DNA from: Nitratifractor salsuginis DSM 16511
GTDB lineage: Bacteria > Campylobacterota > Campylobacteria > Campylobacterales > Sulfurovaceae
DNA length: 64,000 nt
Reading direction: 5' to 3'
NCBI RefSeq assembly: GCF_000186245.1
Contig: NC_014935.1
Coordinates: 1,302,001-1,366,000 of the forward strand
Shown here: positions 13,303 through 39,053 of the stretch, piece by piece
Layout: each line of letters starts with the position of its first letter
Numbering within the stretch: the stretch's first letter is position 1
Made by a program: the position numbers and the translations under genes
Notes under the pieces: generated by a model
The model's database searches: none
What the model was told of the DNA's origin: nothing
What the model saw: the letters and a program-made list of their open reading frames with translations, nothing else

Positions 13303-14058
13303 CTATTTCACCGAAGCCAGTTTTCGCCGCATATAGGCGATCTTCTCCTGCAGCGGCAGATTCTTCGGACAGTGGTCTTCACAGGAGAGAAGGCTCATAC
13401 AGCCGAAGATCCCCGCATCATCCCCCACCAGTTCATAGAAGTCTGCATCATTGCGCTCGTCGTGGGGGTCGGCCTCGAAGCGGGCGATCCGATTGAGCCC
13501 CACCGCGCCTACGAAATCCGGCCGCATCAGCGCCGTGGCGCAAGCGGCCACGCAGATCCCGCACTCGATACAGCGGTCCAATTCGAAGGTGGCATCGGCG
13601 CGATCGGGCTCCACCGGAGCTTCGATGCGACTGTAGTTTCGCTCCTCCTGCTTATGGACCCAGCTCTCCACCCGGCGGCTCATCCGATCCATCCATTGCC
13701 CGGTGATCACCGAGAGATCTTTGATGAGCTCGAAAGCCGGCATCGGCATCAGGCGGATCTTCCCCTCCGGGTAGTCGGCGGTGCGGGTCCGGCAGGCGAG
13801 CAGTGGTTTGCCATTGACCATCATCCCGCAACTGCCGCAGATGCCCGCCCGGCAGACAAAGTCGAAAGCCAGGTCCGGGTCCAGATCCTCCCGGATCATA
13901 TTCAGGGCCACGAAAAGGGTCATCCCGGGGGTTTCCCGGATCTTGTAGGTAGCCAGATGAGGCTTGGACTCGGGATCGGTGGGGTTGTATTTCAATATTT
14001 CAAAGGTCAGCTCCCGCCCCTCGCTCTGATCGCTCGTTATGATCTTGGTCTTAGGCAT
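13303..14058 (-). CDS. frdB: fumarate reductase iron-sulfur subunit
   Basis: FrdB passes electrons between the FrdC hemes and the FrdA flavin. The 251-residue protein carries ligands for the [2Fe-2S] cluster ([11 protein letters not shown] near residue 69, with a later Cys in LLACRT), the [4Fe-4S] cluster ([11 protein letters not shown] near residue 150) and the [3Fe-4S] cluster ([14 protein letters not shown] near residue 218). The last stretch is very close to the Wolinella sequence as I recall it. It overlaps frdA by 8 bp and is last in frdCAB. Confidence 0.95.
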
Positions 14059-16048
14059 ATCCCACCCCCAGGCGTTCGTTTTTGGCTTTGTAATCTTCCG
14101 GCAGCTCGAAGGGCATCAGCGCCTCCTGAATTTCGAAGCGATCTTTCCCTTCGGCCTCCAGTCTCTTGCGGATGGCTTCCACCTCCTCCTGACGCTTGGC
14201 CGAGAGGGGATTTTCGATGATCTGCCCCTTGCGCCCGTAGCCCCGGAAGGCGGGGGGCATCTCCATTTTCATAATCTCCAGAGCTTCATAGTCCACCTCG
14301 GGAAGGGTCGCTTCGGGATCCCTCCAGCGCACCAGGGTCCGTTTGAGCCAATGGAGATCGTCACGCTTGGTGTAATCCTCCCGGTAGTGGGCCCCGCGGC
14401 TCTCCGTGCGCAGCAGCGCTCCGTAGGCGACGCTGATGGCGATCTTGAGCATCCTGGGGACCCGGTAAGCCTGTTCCAGCTCGGGATTGGCTTTGGGGCA
14501 TTTGTAACGCACCGATACCTTTTGACTTATTTTGAGCAGCTCCTGCAGCTCATCCACCGCCTCTTGGAGCGTATCGCCACTGCGGAAGATCCCCACTTTT
14601 TCATCCATAATGACCTGCATTCTTCTTTTGATATCGAAGATGCTCATCCCGTTCCGCTCCGGGCGTGCCAGGATCGAACGCATCTGCGCCTCTTCCCGCT
14701 CCATAGACTCTCGGACCAGCCGGGTATTGATCCGCAGCTCTTCTCGGCGGCAATAGTCGGCCATATAGCTGCCGACGATCATTCCCGAGACCACCGTCTC
14801 CGCCACGGAATTGCCCCCCAGGCGGTTGAAGCCGTGCAGATCCCAGCAGGCCGCTTCCCCGCAGGAGAAGAGCCCGGCGATATCGGGGCTCTCTCCGGTG
14901 GGTTTAGTGTGGATGCCCCCCATACTGTAGTGTTGGGCCGGGCGCACCGGCAGCCACCCCTTGGGGCCGGGGTCGGCGGGGTCGATGCCGTTGAAGGTCA
15001 TCGCGATCTCCCGGACATCCCGGAGGTTCTTTTCGATATGCTCCCGCCCCAGGATGGAGATATCCAGCCAGAGATGCTCCCCGAAAGGCGAAGAGACCCC
15101 CTTGCCCTTGCGGATATGCTCCATCATCCGCCGACTCACCACATCGCGGCTGGCCAGATCCTTCTTCTCCGGTTCGTAATCGGGCATAAAGCGGTGGCCA
15201 TCCACATCCCGCAGCACCCCGCCGTCCCCCCGGCACCCTTCGGTGAGCAGAATGCCCGACGGGACGATGGGGGTGGGGTGAAACTGCACCGCCTCGGGGT
15301 TGCCCAGGGCCGCCAGACCCGTCTCCAGCACTGCCGCCTGGCCGGTCCCCTCACAGATGACCGCGTTGGTGGTGGTGCGGTAGATCCGCCCCCAGCCTCC
15401 GGTGGCGATGCAGGTCGCCTTGGCCACATAGGCTTCGATCTCCCCGCTGATAAGATCCCTCACGATCCCTCCGTAGCAGCGCCCCTCCTCCACGATCAGG
15501 CGCAGCAGTTCCTTGCGCTCGTGGATCTCCACCTCATCCCGGATCGCCCGGTTGGCCACCCCGTAGAGCATCGTATGCCCCGTCGCGTCGGCGGTATAGC
15601 AGGTGCGCCACTTCTTGGTCCCGCCGAAATCCCGGGCGTTGATCAGGCCGTGGGCCTCTTCCTTCTCCACGATCGTAGTGCGCTGGGCATTGATGACCAC
15701 TTCCCTGGGGCCTTTGCGCACCCGGGTCCAGGGCACCCCCCACTCCGCCAGCTGACGGGTCGCCTTGGGGGCGGTGGTGACGAACATCCGCGCGACGACC
15801 TGATCGCAGCCCCAGTCGCTCCCTTTGACCGTATCGGCGAAGTGGACATCCTCGTTGTCCCCCTCGCCCATCACGGTATTGGCCAGGCTCGATTGCATTC
15901 CCCCCTGCGCGGCGGCGGAGTGGGAGCGTTTGACGGGGACCAGGGAGAGGACGATGGTATTGAGCCCCTTTTCCTGCGTCTGCACCGCCACCCGCAGCCC
16001 TGCCAATCCCCCCCCGATCACCAGGGCGTCACAGTAATGGATCTTCAT
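14051..16048 (-). CDS. frdA: fumarate reductase flavoprotein subunit
   Basis: FrdA is the catalytic subunit interconverting fumarate and succinate on the cytoplasmic face. At 665 residues it has the FAD-binding GGGLAGLR near the N-terminus, the covalent-FAD histidine in [10 protein letters not shown] near residue 43, the substrate-site region (PTGIVPSGIL-like, then EGCRGDGG), and [16 protein letters not shown] near residue 370. The operon order C-A-B and the subunit lengths match Wolinella succinogenes menaquinol:fumarate reductase. It overlaps frdC by 4 bp (ATGA). Confidence 0.96.
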
Positions 16049-16818
16049 AATACATCTCCCCTATTCTGCATCGCGGATGGGGTGTAACGCTCTCCGTAGC
16101 TTCCCCGATGCTCCCGGCCGATCTGCCAATAGGTCGCCAGCGCGGCATAGGCCATCAGGGAAAAGAAGAGGATCGCTCCCCACATCATCTTTTTGTTGCG
16201 TCGTCGCCCCGCTCTGGGCCGGGGGCCTACGGCGATGCCCCATTTGACGCTCAAGCGGTAGAGACCCACCATCGCGTGGATCACCACCGCAGCGATCAGC
16301 AGGGCATAAAGCACTCCGTAATGTTCACTGTATATCCGGTCCGCCGAAGCGTAGGGGCCGATCTTGTCGGGGATCGCCACCATCGTCCAGAGATGGGCCG
16401 AACCGAGGAAAAACATAGCGAAACCTGTCCCGGCCTGAAGCATCCACAGAATCGTATCGGTATGCCCCATATGGGCGGCGTGGGTCTTGAGCATCTTGTA
16501 TTCGCGGTATTTGTAGGGGAATTTGCGCATCGCCAAACCTGCGTGGACGATGAAAACGAGAAAGATCAAGGCAGCGGCGATCGACACCAGTGCCGGTTCG
16601 GGTTTTTCCAGGAAGAGACTCCCCTCGAAGAGCTTCGTCTCTTTGTACATCGCCTCTTTGCCCAGGAGGATCGACGACGTGAAAAACATATGCCCGATGA
16701 TGAAAAGCCCCAGGATCAATCCCGTGATACTCTGCCACCGGTCCAGCAGCGCCGGCATACGGCTTTTGGTCCCATCCGCCCTCTTACCCAGATACCCTTC
16801 GATCAGATCGCTCACCAC
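16045..16818 (-). CDS. frdC: fumarate reductase diheme cytochrome b subunit
   Basis: FrdC anchors the complex in the inner membrane, binds two hemes and exchanges electrons with menaquinone. The 257-residue protein has five membrane spans. All four heme-ligand histidines of the Wolinella enzyme are present: [19 protein letters not shown] and [11 protein letters not shown]. The menaquinol-site glutamate (Wolinella E66) is kept in KLFEGSL. The E-pathway glutamate (Wolinella E180, in VELHGSVGLYRL) is Val here ([12 protein letters not shown]). The alignment is gap-free between the third and fourth ligands. An Arg/Lys-rich loop follows helix V. This is the first gene of frdCAB. Confidence 0.93.
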
Positions 16819-16895
16819 GGATCCTTCTCGTCAATTTATCTTATGAAAAAGTCTATCCTTCCTTATCTTGCACAGGTCTTAAATATTACGTGAAT

Positions 16896-16924
16896 TTTCA
16901 CAAGAGATGCTCTTAAGTTATAAT
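16896..16924 (+). promoter_or_regulatory. promoter upstream of the GluRS-like gene
   Basis: A TATAAT at 16919-16924 with a weak TTTCAC at 16896-16901, 17 nt apart, lies about 27 nt before the ATG at 16951. A CCGGAG ribosome binding site sits at 16939-16944. The region is shared with divergent frdC. Confidence 0.5.
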
Positions 16925-16950
16925 TCGCCAAATTTATCTCCGGAGAACCG

Positions 16951-18270
16951 ATGTTACGCTTTGCACCTCCCCTTGACAGGGATCTCAATGTCAACGATCT
17001 GCGGATCGCCCTGATCAACTATATCGTCTCCCGACAGCGCAATGAGGGTTTCATCCTCCGCTTCGAGGATCTGGACAGAACCCGGAACATCGAAGGCAAA
17101 GAGCAGGAACACGAACGCCTCCTACAAAAGTTCGCCCTGCAGCCCGATCAAACGGTTTACCAGAGCGGCCACCCGGCCCGCTATCAGCGTCTGGCCCTTC
17201 AGTTGCTTGAATCGAAAAAGGCCTTTCTCTGTATCTGCCGCGAAGAGGATCTGCAACAGGAGCGCCGGGAAGCGGCCCGGCAAAACCTTCCCCATAGCTA
17301 CAGAGGGCACTGCCTGGATCTTCCTCCCGAAGAGATCACCCGCATCAAAGAGGAACAAATCCCCTTCACGATCCGACTGCGCAAACCTGCCCGGCCCGTC
17401 ACATTCACTGACCTTTTACTCGGAGAGCAGCAAAGCGAGCCCCACGAAGTCGACCACTTTCTCCTCCAGCGTGCTGACGGAACCCCCACGGAGGATTTCG
17501 CCACGGCCGTGGACGATCTGATGGAGGGGGTCACCCTGGTGATCCGCGATGAGGGGCATCTGACCCCCCATACCGCCCGGGAGATTTACCTGCGTGAAGC
17601 ATTGGGAATGGAAAGTCAGATCGCCTACCTCCATCCGCCCACCCTTCGCGATGCGGAGGGCAAAAGGCTCTCCCCCCACGACCGGAGCGCAACCCTCTTC
17701 CATCTGCTCGAAGAGGGCTTCCTCCCTGACGCCATCATCAATTACCTCCTGACCCTGGGGATCGACGCTCCCGGGGAGATCTTCACCCTCCCCGAAGCGG
17801 TGGAGTGGTTCGATCCCAAACTCCTCATAGCGGAGCCGGCCCGCTTCGACATACAAGAGCTTCGGCGCATCAACCGTGAGCATCTGCAGCGAATGGACGA
17901 CCTGGCCCTCTCCCGCATCTTCCGCTTCGCCGACCGGGACATCGGGCGTCTGGCGAAGCTCTACCTGGATGAGTGTGCCACCGTCAAGGAGCTGGATGAA
18001 CGCATCAGTGCGATCTTTTCCCCAAAAAGATGCGATGGACCCCAGGGAGAAAGGATGCGGAAGCTCTCGGAGCTGATCCGGCGTGCTCCCATGATCGAAA
18101 GCTACGAAGATTTCGAAGCCTACCTGACGGCCCAGAGCGCTCTGGAGGGGGAAGAGCTTCGCACACCCCTGCGCCTGCTCATCACCGGTTCGCCAAAGGG
18201 CCCGAAACTGGATAAAATCTATGAAACTATAAATCCCTACATCACGGAGGTCGCGAAATGTCAGCCCTGA
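16951..18270 (+). CDS. glutamyl-tRNA synthetase-like protein with degenerate class I signatures
   Basis: The full-length (439 aa) frame is clearly GluRS-derived: MLRFAP at the N-terminus, then RFEDLDRTRNIEGK, HSYRGHC, TVDD-like ATAVDDLMEGVTLVIRDEGHL, and a helical anticodon-binding half. The catalytic signatures are altered together. HIG(N/H) after RFAPSPTG is LNVNDLRIA; KLSKR is RLSPH (EGKRLSPHDRS); the glutamate-site Tyr in TPTY-FA is Glu (TPTEDFATA); RGEDH is RDEGH. The nearest family is the second GluRS (GltX2) of this phylum, which charges tRNA-Gln. Charging by this copy is doubtful. The DNA shows no frameshift or stop. It overlaps yggT by 13 bp. Confidence 0.85.
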   Translation: MLRFAPPLDRDLNVNDLRIALINYIVSRQRNEGFILRFEDLDRTRNIEGKEQEHERLLQKFALQPDQTVYQSGHPARYQRLALQLLESKKAFLCICREEDLQQERREAARQNLPHSYRGHCLDLPPEEITRIKEEQIPFTIRLRKPARPVTFTDLLLGEQQSEPHEVDHFLLQRADGTPTEDFATAVDDLMEGVTLVIRDEGHLTPHTAREIYLREALGMESQIAYLHPPTLRDAEGKRLSPHDRSATLFHLLEEGFLPDAIINYLLTLGIDAPGEIFTLPEAVEWFDPKLLIAEPARFDIQELRRINREHLQRMDDLALSRIFRFADRDIGRLAKLYLDECATVKELDERISAIFSPKRCDGPQGERMRKLSELIRRAPMIESYEDFEAYLTAQSALEGEELRTPLRLLITGSPKGPKLDKIYETINPYITEVAKCQP

Positions 18271-18545
18271 TCTATGCTCTGGTACAGGTAATCCACACTG
18301 TCATCAATCTCTATATTTGGATGATCATCATCGCCGCGGTGCTGAGCTTCGTCCAGCCCAATCCCGCCAATCCCACCGTCCGCTCCCTCATTTTCGGGCT
18401 CTATCGCCTCACCGAGCCCGCCTTTGCCTGGGTTCGGCGCAAGATGCCCTTCGTGGTCGTGGGAGGGATCGACCTCTCCCCCATCGTGATCCTGCTGGCT
18501 CTGCAGTTTCTCGATGTCTTTCTCCTGAGGCTCGTCTTCGGATGA
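18258..18545 (+). CDS. YggT family membrane protein
   Basis: A 95-residue protein with two hydrophobic hairpins, ALVQVIHTVINLYIWMIIIAAVLSF and IDLSPIVILLALQFLDVFLLRLV. It carries the family signature region W-x-x-xxRxxxPFVVVGGIDLSPIVILL. YggT proteins are inner-membrane and linked to envelope or osmotic stress and, in some lineages, to cell division; the mechanism is unknown. It overlaps the genes on both sides (13 bp with the GluRS-like gene, 4 bp with the transglycosylase), so the three are probably co-translated. Confidence 0.9.
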   Translation: MSALIYALVQVIHTVINLYIWMIIIAAVLSFVQPNPANPTVRSLIFGLYRLTEPAFAWVRRKMPFVVVGGIDLSPIVILLALQFLDVFLLRLVFG

Positions 18546-20083
18546 GAGCGCTCTTCGCACTCTTTCTGCTGCTCCTGATCCCCCTGGGGGCCAAGAGTTT
18601 CAGCTACGCCCAGGTCCATTCCCTCCCCCAGGGTGTGGAGAAGGATTACTACATTTGGCGCTTCATCCGCCAAAAGAGTACCACCAAGGCCCAGGCGCGG
18701 CGAATCATCCGCGAAGCTTCACGGATCAATCCCAACCTCAAAAAGGCTTACCGCCGCAAGACCGGACACAACCCGCCGATCCCTCCCCGGCCCAAACCGA
18801 GCCTGAGCCCCCGACAGAAGCAGGAGTTGGAGCGCAAACTGGCGATCGCACGGCAGGTGCTACGATCCCCCGATCCTCTCTCGGCCTGGCAAAAGCTCGA
18901 CCCCGAGATGAAGCTCTTCGTCTTCAAGCACGCCGGAACCCGGGGGCGCCGCACCCTTGATTATAAGATAAGCGAAGAAGAGTGGCAGGAGCTGAGCCGC
19001 TATCCCGATGCCAACCTGATGCTCTATTATCTGCGCCGCGACCGGCTCAAAAAGCTCTCCCGCATCCTGCGCTACAAGCCCGCCCAGGACAACCGTCTCC
19101 GCTACGACTATCTGATGCGCCTGAGCTTCGAAGCGCTCCGACGCGGCGACGAGAGCCTGGCGGAGTACGACTTCGCCCAGGCCGCCCGACGCGCCCGCAA
19201 GCGGGAGTTGGCCGACCGGGCCCTCTTCTGGGCCTGGAAAGCGGACGATGACCGGGACTACCTCAAAAAATTGGCTAAGAGCTGGGATATCAACCTCTAC
19301 ACCCTTGCCGCCCGGGACGCCCTGAAGATGAAATACGACCTGGGGATCACCCCCGAGCTTCCCCGGGGGCATGTCCCCGGATTCGATATCCGCGACCCGA
19401 TCCAGTGGCACAGCCTCAAACAGAAGATCTTCGATCCCCACAGCGACCTCGAGGCCCTGGCTCAGCGTTTCAAAACCGACGAGACCGTCGGCCACTACTG
19501 CTACATTATGACCAAGGCCGGGCACGACAAGCCCCAATACTTCCCGATGCCCTACCGGGATTTTATGAAAAAGCTTCCCGTCAAGCGCCAGGCGATCCTC
19601 TATGCCATCGCCAGACAGGAGAGCCGCTTCGTCCCCGCCTCGGTCTCCGGCTCCTTCGCCCTGGGGATGATGCAGATTATGCCCTTTTTGGTCGACCATC
19701 TCCAAAAGGTGCGGCACGAGCGGATCGACTATGACGATCTCTTCGACCCCATCACCGCCCTCAAATACGCCAATACCCATATGGATTATCTGACGAGCTG
19801 GCTGCACCACCCTCTCTTCGTCGCCTACGCCTACAATGCCGGTATCGGCTTCACCAAGCGCCTGATCCGGCGCAAAGACCTCTTCGAGAACCGGAACAAA
19901 TACGACCCCTGGATCAGTCTGGAACGGGTCGCCAACTATCAGGCAAACGACTACGGCAAAAAAGTCCTCACCAATTACGTCATCTATCTCAACAAGCTGG
20001 GCTATCCCATCCGCCTCACAGACCTGGTCTCCGTGCTCCATCTGCCCCGTTATACCGACGAGTTTCGCAAAAGACGAAAATGA
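18542..20083 (+). CDS. slt: soluble lytic murein transglycosylase
   Basis: The 513-residue product has a signal peptide (MRALFALFLLLLIPLGAKS), a long helical superhelix of the Slt70 U-domain type, and a C-terminal lysozyme-like SLT domain. The catalytic Glu lies in AIARQESRF near residue 360; the family signature follows in GSFALGMMQIMPFLV and AYAYNAGIGFTKRL. It cleaves glycan strands in the periplasm to 1,6-anhydro products. The ATG overlaps the yggT stop (ATGA) and gives a proper signal peptide. The upstream in-frame extension is a shadow of yggT. Confidence 0.92.
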   Translation: MRALFALFLLLLIPLGAKSFSYAQVHSLPQGVEKDYYIWRFIRQKSTTKAQARRIIREASRINPNLKKAYRRKTGHNPPIPPRPKPSLSPRQKQELERKLAIARQVLRSPDPLSAWQKLDPEMKLFVFKHAGTRGRRTLDYKISEEEWQELSRYPDANLMLYYLRRDRLKKLSRILRYKPAQDNRLRYDYLMRLSFEALRRGDESLAEYDFAQAARRARKRELADRALFWAWKADDDRDYLKKLAKSWDINLYTLAARDALKMKYDLGITPELPRGHVPGFDIRDPIQWHSLKQKIFDPHSDLEALAQRFKTDETVGHYCYIMTKAGHDKPQYFPMPYRDFMKKLPVKRQAILYAIARQESRFVPASVSGSFALGMMQIMPFLVDHLQKVRHERIDYDDLFDPITALKYANTHMDYLTSWLHHPLFVAYAYNAGIGFTKRLIRRKDLFENRNKYDPWISLERVANYQANDYGKKVLTNYVIYLNKLGYPIRLTDLVSVLHLPRYTDEFRKRRK

Positions 20084-37021: not shown

Positions 37022-37097
37022 AAAAAACGTCTCCGACAGCAACTTTTGGCTAAAATAACTCCAACTCATTTCACACTATCCACGAAGGAAGCGTTCC

Positions 37098-39053
37098 ATG
37101 TCCGAGCATTGCAAAAAAGCCTATATCACCACTCCGATCTATTATGTCAACGACATTCCCCACATCGGCCATGCCTATACCACCATCATCGCCGATACCC
37201 TGGCGATCTACTCCCGCATGGCCGGCCTGGAGACCTTTTTCCTCACCGGGACCGACGAACACGGGCAAAAGATCGAAGAGGCCGCCAAAAAGCGGGGCAA
37301 ATCCCCCAAGGAGTATGCCGACGAGATCAGCGGACGCTTCAAAGCCCTCTGGGACGAATTTGACATCAGTTACGACAAGTTCATCCGTACCACCGATGAA
37401 GACCACAAACTGGGGGTCCAGGCGGCTTTTAAAAAGATGTATGAGAAGGGGGACATTTACAAAGATGTCTACCGGGGCCACTACTGCATCAGCTGCGAAG
37501 CCTTCTTCACCGAGACCCAGCTCGTCGACGGCGAATTCTGTCCCGAATGCGGCAAGCCGACCCAGATCGTTGAGGAGGAGAGCTACTTTTTCCGGCTGAG
37601 CAAATACCAGGACAAGCTCCTGGAGTGGTATCGGGAGAATGAAAAGTGCATCCTCCCCAAGACCCGCCGCAACGAAGTGATGCGCTTCGTCGAAGGAGGG
37701 CTCGATGACCTCTCCATCACCCGCACCAGCTTCGACTGGGGGGTCAAGCTCCCGCCGGAGATCAACGACCCCAAACACGTCATGTATGTCTGGCTCGATG
37801 CGCTGATGAATTACCTGACCGCACTGGGCTACGGCACCGACGAGAAGCTCCTCGATTTCTGGCCCGCCCGCGTGCATCTCATCGGCAAGGATATCCTCCG
37901 CTTCCACGCCGTCTACTGGCCCGCTTTTCTGATGAGCCTCGATATGCCCCTGCCCAAGCACATCGCGGCCCACGGCTGGTGGACCCGCAACGGGGAGAAG
38001 ATGTCCAAATCCAAGGGCAACGTCATCAACCCCAAAGAGGTGGCCGACGCCTATGGCCTGGAGAACTTCCGCTACTTTATGCTCCGGGAGGTCCCCTTCG
38101 GCGGTGATGGAGATTTCAGCCAAAAGGCCCTCATCGACCGGATCAACTCCGACCTGGGCAACGATCTGGGCAACCTCCTCAACCGCCTCATCGGTATGAG
38201 CGGCAAATACAGCGAAGGCTCCGTCAGCAGCGCCAAAGTGGCCGAACTCTACGGCGACGAGCTGGCGGAAGTCCACGACTCCCTGGACAAGCTAGAGCCG
38301 CTGCTCTTTGAAATGCAGTTGCACCGCTACCTCGAAGAGCTCTGGAAGCCCCTCTCCATCGCCAACAAATCGATTGACAAATACCAACCCTGGGTGCTGA
38401 TGAAAGAGGGCAAAACCGAAGAGGCCCTGGCCCTGCTGGGGCTCATCGCCAACATCCTGGCCAAGGTCTCCGTGATGCTCCACCCCGTCATGCCCAAGAC
38501 CACCGATACCATCGCCCGGGCCCTGGGCTTCACGATCAACCAGACCGCCTATGAAGACCTGATCAAGCGCAAAGACCTCCTCAGCGACTTCACCATCGAA
38601 AAGGTCCCACCCCTCTTCCCCCGCATCGAAGAGCAGCTGCTCAAAGAAGCGACTCCCGCCGAAGAGAAAGCCGCTCCCAAGAAGGAGGCATCCAAAAAAG
38701 AGAAGGCCAAGAGCGAAGAGCCCCAGGGGCTCATCACCATCGACCAGTTTTTCCAAACCAGCCTCAAAGTCGGCACCGTGCTCGAAGCCGAAGAGGTCCC
38801 CAAGAGCAAAAAGCTCCTGCTTCTCCAGGTGGACCTGGGCGAAGAGCAGCCGCGCCAGATCGTCGCCGGGATCAAAGAGTGGTATGCCCCGGCGGACCTG
38901 GTCGGCACCCAGGTCTGCGTCGTGGCCAACCTCAAACCCGCCAAACTGATGGGCCTGCGCTCGGAGGGGATGCTTCTGGCCGCCAAAGATGAGGAGGGCT
39001 TGGCCCTGATCCGCCCCGAAAAGCCCAAAAAACCTGGCACACCGATCGGGTGA
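37098..39053 (+). CDS. metG: methionyl-tRNA synthetase
   Basis: MetG charges tRNA-Met and tRNA-fMet. The 651-residue class I enzyme has the HIGH-region PHIGHAYTTI near residue 22, a CxxC/CxxC zinc knuckle (CISCEAFFTE, CPECGKP), KMSKSKGN near residue 300, a helical anticodon domain, a Lys/Glu/Ala-rich linker near residues 520-545, and the C-terminal Trbp111-like tRNA-binding domain (VGTVLEAEEVPKSKKLLLLQVDLG). The normal signatures here contrast with the GluRS-like gene. It overlaps the next gene by 4 bp. Confidence 0.97.
   Translation: MSEHCKKAYITTPIYYVNDIPHIGHAYTTIIADTLAIYSRMAGLETFFLTGTDEHGQKIEEAAKKRGKSPKEYADEISGRFKALWDEFDISYDKFIRTTDEDHKLGVQAAFKKMYEKGDIYKDVYRGHYCISCEAFFTETQLVDGEFCPECGKPTQIVEEESYFFRLSKYQDKLLEWYRENEKCILPKTRRNEVMRFVEGGLDDLSITRTSFDWGVKLPPEINDPKHVMYVWLDALMNYLTALGYGTDEKLLDFWPARVHLIGKDILRFHAVYWPAFLMSLDMPLPKHIAAHGWWTRNGEKMSKSKGNVINPKEVADAYGLENFRYFMLREVPFGGDGDFSQKALIDRINSDLGNDLGNLLNRLIGMSGKYSEGSVSSAKVAELYGDELAEVHDSLDKLEPLLFEMQLHRYLEELWKPLSIANKSIDKYQPWVLMKEGKTEEALALLGLIANILAKVSVMLHPVMPKTTDTIARALGFTINQTAYEDLIKRKDLLSDFTIEKVPPLFPRIEEQLLKEATPAEEKAAPKKEASKKEKAKSEEPQGLITIDQFFQTSLKVGTVLEAEEVPKSKKLLLLQVDLGEEQPRQIVAGIKEWYAPADLVGTQVCVVANLKPAKLMGLRSEGMLLAAKDEEGLALIRPEKPKKPGTPIG

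Follow-up and report, generated by a model that had tools for sequence, protein, structure and literature searches.

The GluRS2 (GltX2) proteins of Helicobacter pylori and other Campylobacterota, which are tRNA(Gln)-specific, are the closest described systems for the gene analysed here, and the specificity of the H. pylori enzyme is summarised in the available part of PMC9976931. The accessible portion of PMC3927822 (2014) gives H-phi-G-N as the motif of epsilonproteobacterial GluRS2 and names six epsilonproteobacteria, including Nitratifractor salsuginis, in which GluRS2 and GlnRS co-occur; GlnRS was suggested there to be possibly non-functional, since GluRS2 is always present. The same portion describes Thermotoga maritima GluRS2 as an inactive second GluRS that charges neither tRNA(Glu) nor tRNA(Gln). 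DALRD3, according to the available part of PMC7237682, is an arginyl-synthetase-like protein that lacks the catalytic motif and directs METTL2 to tRNA(Arg) for m3C formation.

The gltX2 gene of N. salsuginis DSM 16511 was analysed within a window, the whole stretch of 64,000 nucleotides under study. It encodes the same two-domain protein as the GluRS2 of Campylobacterota, with GltX2-type residues and in the gltX2-yggT-slt cluster of intact relatives, but all the catalytic signatures are lost and GlnRS is present in the genome. HisZ, a regulatory paralogue akin to HisRS, offers a parallel as a synthetase paralogue without catalytic activity that is retained for its protein partner; it differs in its class II fold and in that partner, HisG. 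The likeness to T. maritima GluRS2 is that of a second GluRS which, judged here from its sequence, presumably does not charge; the T. maritima protein, as presented in the available part of PMC3927822, is of a gene-duplicate type with the same H-phi-G-G motif as GluRS1, whereas here the signatures are gone and their loss is tied to GlnRS. DALRD3 may be taken by analogy as a precedent for an anticodon-binding half kept without catalysis as a tRNA adaptor; it is a vertebrate protein derived from another synthetase and has a known partner (PMC7237682, available part), and the analogy is functional only. The openly licensed PMC literature on GluRS2 and GlnRS of the phylum, the transamidosome and inactive synthetases, within the portions of those sources that were available, gave no account of these GluRS2 proteins losing their signatures.

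Signature loss and gene context at the gltX2 locus

The original prediction described an intact 439-codon frame from which every class I catalytic signature had gone, and the alignment with GltX1 of the same genome and 22 intact GltX2 proteins confirmed this. HIGN is replaced by NVND and K(M/L)SKR by RLSPH (Table 1), APSP by APPL at residues 5–8, PTYNF by PTEDF (Y181E) and RGEDH by RDEGH, all in an unbroken frame. The metG gene of the window (37059–39050) carries HIGH and KMSKS, as had been noted. For the promoter and ribosome binding site that had been proposed, a promoter-like TTCACA-16-TATAAT (consensus only) and a GGAG 5' of the gltX2 ATG were seen; the region 16600–17200 contains two promoter-like sites with one −10 common to both, against a mean of 0.4 in shuffled sequences. 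The genes at the locus follow the order gltX2-yggT-slt, where yggT is the name used here for the second gene, whose frame gave no NCBIfam match. The genes for the iron-sulfur, flavoprotein and cytochrome b components of fumarate reductase lie at 13303–16818 on the minus strand, divergent from gltX2.

Table 1. Features of the gltX2 locus of N. salsuginis DSM 16511 (positions in the window).
Feature	Position	Strand	Basis
gltX2, putative GluRS2-type pseudo-synthetase without catalytic signatures, 439 aa	16951–18270 (ATG at 16951, stop codon ending at 18270)	+	Frame, profile, alignment, structure prediction
gltX2 catalytic half, residues 1–250, without signatures	16951–17700	+	Alignment
gltX2 stem-contact and anticodon-binding half, residues 251–439	17701–18267	+	More constrained half in dead copies
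HIGH position, NVND, residues 13–16	16987–16998	+	Alignment
KMSKS position, RLSPH, residues 239–243	17665–17679	+	Alignment
Promoter-like site, TTCACA-16 nt-TATAAT	16897–16924	+	11/12 consensus matches; consensus only
GGAGG for yggT, within the gltX2 frame, covering the E433 codon	18246–18250	+	Sequence
yggT-like membrane protein gene, overlapping the gltX2 3' end	18258–18545	+	Homologue placed at 147/151 loci
Soluble lytic transglycosylase (slt-like) gene, third of the cluster	18551–20083	+	Profile match

The gltX2 product scored 281.3 bits with the TIGR00464 (gltX_bact) profile, slightly below its cut-off of 289.95, and among the hallmarks of a bacterial GluRS it has neither HIGH nor KMSKS and is predicted to keep the full fold. 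Its closest relatives are the GltX2 copies at gltX2-yggT-slt, as expected for a member of the Campylobacterota GltX2 orthologue group. GluQRS was rejected as an identity, since the TIGR03838 score (146.7 bits) is below the cut-off of 276.7 and the C-terminal half is full-length, whereas GluQRS is without the anticodon half. The AlphaFold2 model built with 116 family sequences (pLDDT 95.8, pTM 0.92) predicted the complete GluRS fold, comprising the Rossmann and the helical anticodon half; GluRS structures were its top matches across the whole length, the best being 7k86_B (Z 37.5, 428 residues, rmsd 4.4). This common fold says nothing on function. The far-decayed GltX2 copy of G031, folded without other sequences, gave a pLDDT of 34.9. 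As the protein lies near the GluRS models, pipelines may annotate it as glutamate--tRNA ligase, which would mislead translation models.

GltX2 signatures and GlnRS across related genomes

The N. salsuginis genome (2.10 Mb, one contig) contains only three genes found by the PF00749 search, which are GlnRS-YqeY (L001; 758 aa, PHIGH and MSKR intact), GltX1 (L002; 465 aa, LHIGG and KLSKR intact) and gltX2; the search of the whole genome found no second GltX2. The count of gltX genes that had been called for thus returned gltX2 as the sole GltX2-type gene, and the refuting condition named beforehand, a sole GltX2-type gene that proves active, was too simple, as GlnRS covers tRNA(Gln). Because GltX1 and GlnRS-YqeY with intact motifs are encoded in the same genome, GltX2 of N. 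salsuginis would no longer be needed for Glu-tRNA(Gln). GatB is present and no AsnRS over the family cut-off of 342.6 bits was found in the genome (best matches, 101.3 and 90.6 bits); therefore, Asn-tRNA(Asn) presumably still depends on GatCAB, and Gln-tRNA(Gln) could be made by GlnRS. Of 44 tRNA matches in the genome, 39 genes were scanned and included one for tRNA(Gln) (TTG), with a U-A first pair that says nothing on function.

From a first set of 60 relatives, 50 GltX2 copies including that of the window were aligned. The HIGH and KMSKR-type motifs were found in all 22 copies from GlnRS-less genomes and in only 1 of 28 (G025) from GlnRS-bearing genomes. A catalytic score counting H13, G15, Y181, G200, S241, K242 and R243 was then applied to a wider set made of the family (175 genomes) and a sample of the order (109 genomes), and copies with three or fewer of the seven residues were termed dead. 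Among the matches listed, 213 genomes had a scored GltX2; three with a partial GlnRS were set apart and the 210 with clear GlnRS status were compared. The GlnRS-positive genomes (n = 114) comprised 93 with a score of 0–3, 13 with 4–6 and 8 with 7, and the GlnRS-negative ones (n = 96) comprised 85 with 7, 3 with 6 and 8 lower, which makes 88/96 at 6–7, all among the matches listed (Fisher p 1.6e-35, kinship ignored). In families other than that of the window, 15/15 GlnRS-positive genomes scored 0–3 and 59/61 GlnRS-negative genomes scored 7 among the matches listed.

Seven of the eight low-scoring GlnRS-negative genomes are drafts (G080, G082, G104, G110, G127, G181 and G273), for which the absence of GlnRS may be false. 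The eighth, G212, has its GltX2 in two frames of 218 and 236 aa (L239, G212:C1:1539345-1542639), which may be a sequencing error or a real break. In the family search, 117 of 175 genomes had GlnRS over the cut-off among the matches listed and 99 of these gave a scored GltX2 frame; the 18 outside the alignment include contig-end fragments, a few open frames (e.g., G078, 389 aa), the deletion in G183 and genomes without a match. The GltX2 of G017, a draft without detected GlnRS, is in fragments, one of them with an in-frame TAG, and was left out of the scores.

The signature loss is not due to chance, because it recurs systematically in related genomes, and a sequencing error or local pseudogene was rejected on finding the same loss in many independent genomes. 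Normal motifs at this locus in close relatives had been named beforehand as a sign of such an error; they do occur in G008 and G009, but both are without GlnRS and the normal motifs therefore belong to the biological pattern. The reading as a pseudo-synthetase is thus well supported, since the signature loss is genuine, recurs across many relatives and goes with the presence of GlnRS. Judged by these motifs, the suggestion of an idle GlnRS in the available part of PMC3927822 looks reversed, as GlnRS keeps its motifs and GluRS2 decays in the lineages studied.

Among the eight GlnRS-positive genomes whose GltX2 scores 7/7, some look recent or special. GlnRS adjoins gltX2 in two of them, G025 and G109. 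The GlnRS match of G159 contains a stop and is in two pieces (G159:C77:18790-20350) with an intact GltX2 (7/7), and the GlnRS of G166 looks broken (G166:C28:4861-6488) with a nearly intact GltX2 (5/7); it is possible that in both the newcomer GlnRS was lost instead of GltX2. GlnRS lies directly beside gltX2, divergently or in tandem, in G025, G034, G051, G055, G103, G105, G108, G124 and others, which suggests that it was inserted at the gltX2 site in those genomes. No GlnRS over the cut-off and no clear GltX2 were found among the matches listed in f14 (G049, G205, G219, G232, G244, G256, G268), f17 (G052, G208, G222), g47 (G231, G243) and G056, where GltX1 may be non-discriminating.

In each of the family genera g1, g2, g4, g5, g7 and g9, species with an intact GltX2 and no GlnRS occur alongside species with a dead GltX2 and a GlnRS. 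A tree built from yggT and the start of slt at 136 loci gave 23 changes between dead and live, which we read as about a dozen or more GltX2 inactivations because these markers are short and it is a quick tree; it is implausible that a dead copy became live again. When 18 independent pairs differing in GlnRS were drawn on supported branches, GltX2 followed GlnRS in a mean of 12.2, opposed it in 0.1 and was the same in 5.7 (sign test, median p 0.0005). These lineages offer a replicated natural experiment on what remains of an aminoacyl-tRNA synthetase after another enzyme has taken over its reaction.

Selection on the dead copies

The dN/dS ratios were estimated by NG86 with each sequence used in one pair only, at identities of 0.70–0.985 for all pairs and 0.60–0.985 for pairs with a loop deletion. 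The median was 0.19 in 24 independent dead pairs and 0.067 in 16 intact pairs, and the median ratio of dN in the catalytic half to dN in the C-terminal half was 1.59 in the dead and 0.77 in the intact pairs. Pairs that share a deletion of the KMSKS loop very probably had a common ancestor that was already dead. In 19 independent pairs of this kind, the median dN/dS was 0.21 for residues 1–250 (maximum 0.35) and 0.16 for residues 251–425 (maximum 0.29), whereas neutral simulations with the same estimator gave a mean of 0.76 (range 0.66–0.87). The dead GltX2 copies thus still evolve under purifying selection. A pseudogene was rejected for gltX2, as the frame is intact and dN/dS among dead relatives is far below the neutral control.

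The dead set comprised 83 family copies spanning 31.4 substitutions per site, and the 34 intact copies span 6.4; three later copies stand outside this set, and 86 were used for the charge comparison. The relative rate of residues 321–439 falls from 1.27 in intact to 0.91 in dead copies and that of residues 166–250 rises from 0.70 to 1.17. The near-invariant residues of the dead copies are mostly outside the active site, with S321, D328, G332 and T344 present in 83/83 and K60, D260, N308, H311, K336, K359, P380, Y424 and Y430 in 82/83. At several of them N. salsuginis GltX1 has another residue (K60/W, H311/Y, D328/G, Y424/M and Y430/T). E433, also in 83/83, was set aside, as the GGAGG of yggT covers its codon. 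K60, D260 and P281 are kept in both intact and dead family copies and occur in 3, 0 and 0 of 14 intact copies from other families, which hints at a family-specific constraint older than the inactivation.

Outright loss or truncation occurs in some lineages, so the role of the dead GltX2 is not universally essential and in places is dispensable. In G183, a GlnRS-positive member of the window's family, gltX2 is reduced to a scar of about 15 codons directly before yggT (L181, G183:C120:5100-6767, reverse strand, about 1135–1200), and the frame upstream of it is, as recognised by eye, presumably kdsA-like. In G041 and G044, GlnRS-positive genomes from other families, yggT-slt is present and gltX2 is absent, and no GltX2-level match was found among the matches listed in further GlnRS-positive genomes of f6 and f9. 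The dead GltX2 of G210 is truncated at 313 aa, lacks the whole anticodon domain and is followed directly by yggT (L238, G210:C1:932645-936577); this one lineage has dropped the half called most constrained.

Candidate roles of the retained protein

We consider it likely that gltX2 encodes a synthetase that is dead but retained for a non-catalytic role of some kind. The ancestral GluRS2 would have placed Glu onto tRNA(Gln) for GatCAB; because direct charging of tRNA(Gln) is possible with GlnRS-YqeY, decay would have set in at the ATP, glutamate and KMSKS sites and aminoacylation would have been lost, many times over among relatives. Purifying selection still maintains the folded protein, above all in its stem-contact and anticodon half and at certain GltX2-type polar residues, and the protein would most likely act as a non-catalytic adaptor, that is, a binding or scaffold protein. 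Such an adaptor might present one of the tRNAs for Gln, Glu or Asn, or engage a partner protein, in the setting of the still-needed GatCAB or of tRNA-maturation machinery. We infer that the gltX2 product has no enzyme activity, is a functional protein and acts as an adaptor. The 'new role' of the original prediction stands as far as selection after inactivation is concerned; the role itself, and the choice between a new and an old second function, go beyond that. The case seems evenly balanced for GluRS2 having been a two-job protein, so that the takeover by GlnRS would erase catalysis, the second job alone would keep the gene, and a dozen or more independent pseudo-synthetases would converge on one function, mainly of the stem-contact and anticodon half. 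The dead copies provide a candidate for a second, hidden function of GluRS2 in the phylum to which Helicobacter and Campylobacter belong.

That the adaptor binds tRNA is proposed tentatively. The mean net charge is −9.2 in dead against −2.8 in intact copies for the catalytic half and −8.1 against −4.3 for the C-terminal half, and many conserved basic residues (R105, R116, K157, K239) are lost in dead copies; this weakens a tRNA-binding role, although GltX1 of the same genome is acidic too (−6 and −7). E341 and G417, which we take to be anticodon-reading residues, are relaxed (64/83 and 68/83), and this also speaks against tRNA binding. The loss of basic residues with rising acidity would fit a form of the preferred reading in which the C-terminal half binds a protein (e.g., GlnRS, GatCAB or AspRS) and tRNA contact is lost as well, and so would the invariance of the family-specific K60, D260 and P281 before inactivation. 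This protein-only adaptor is possible but doubtful, as the cysteines presumed to be of zinc type are mostly kept (C94 in 76/83, C96 and C121 each in 74/83), along with K336, K359 and R318, and no partner is known.

A slow decay, in which a redundant, still expressed enzyme is held back by selection against misfolding alone, is unlikely. The scores in GlnRS-positive genomes run continuously from 7 to 0, constraint is relaxed in the dead pairs, full loss or truncation occurs in some lineages, and dN/dS could be lowered if a useless but expressed protein is selected not to misfold. Against it, the frames of the dead copies stay intact over their whole 31.4 substitutions per site, where about 4.7 stop changes are possible per 100 missense changes, polar residues are invariant, and the anticodon half is relatively slower, not faster.

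It is improbable that the frame is kept only through translational coupling to yggT by a protein that itself does nothing. In 81/82 dead loci placed, yggT starts no more than two bases past the gltX2 stop or overlaps with it, the E433 codon falls within the yggT GGAGG, and the G183 scar retains the region directly before yggT. Coupling, however, needs an open frame and not a particular sequence, whereas dN/dS is far below the neutral control in both halves even with the last 14 residues omitted; near-invariant residues lie far from the gltX2 3' end, and yggT persists without gltX2 in G041, G044 and G183. Coupling accounts for the open frame and the last residues, not for the protein-level constraint.

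The very divergent active enzyme of the original prediction is strongly disfavoured, as is a hydrolase of Glu-tRNA(Gln) such as H. pylori GluRS2 is reportedly able to be when Glu-tRNA(Gln) is in excess: the fold and the presumed zinc-type subdomain are kept, but HIGH, KMSKS, RGEDH and the glutamate-site residues are lost, in ways that vary between lineages, and many dead copies carry a deletion of the KMSKS loop.
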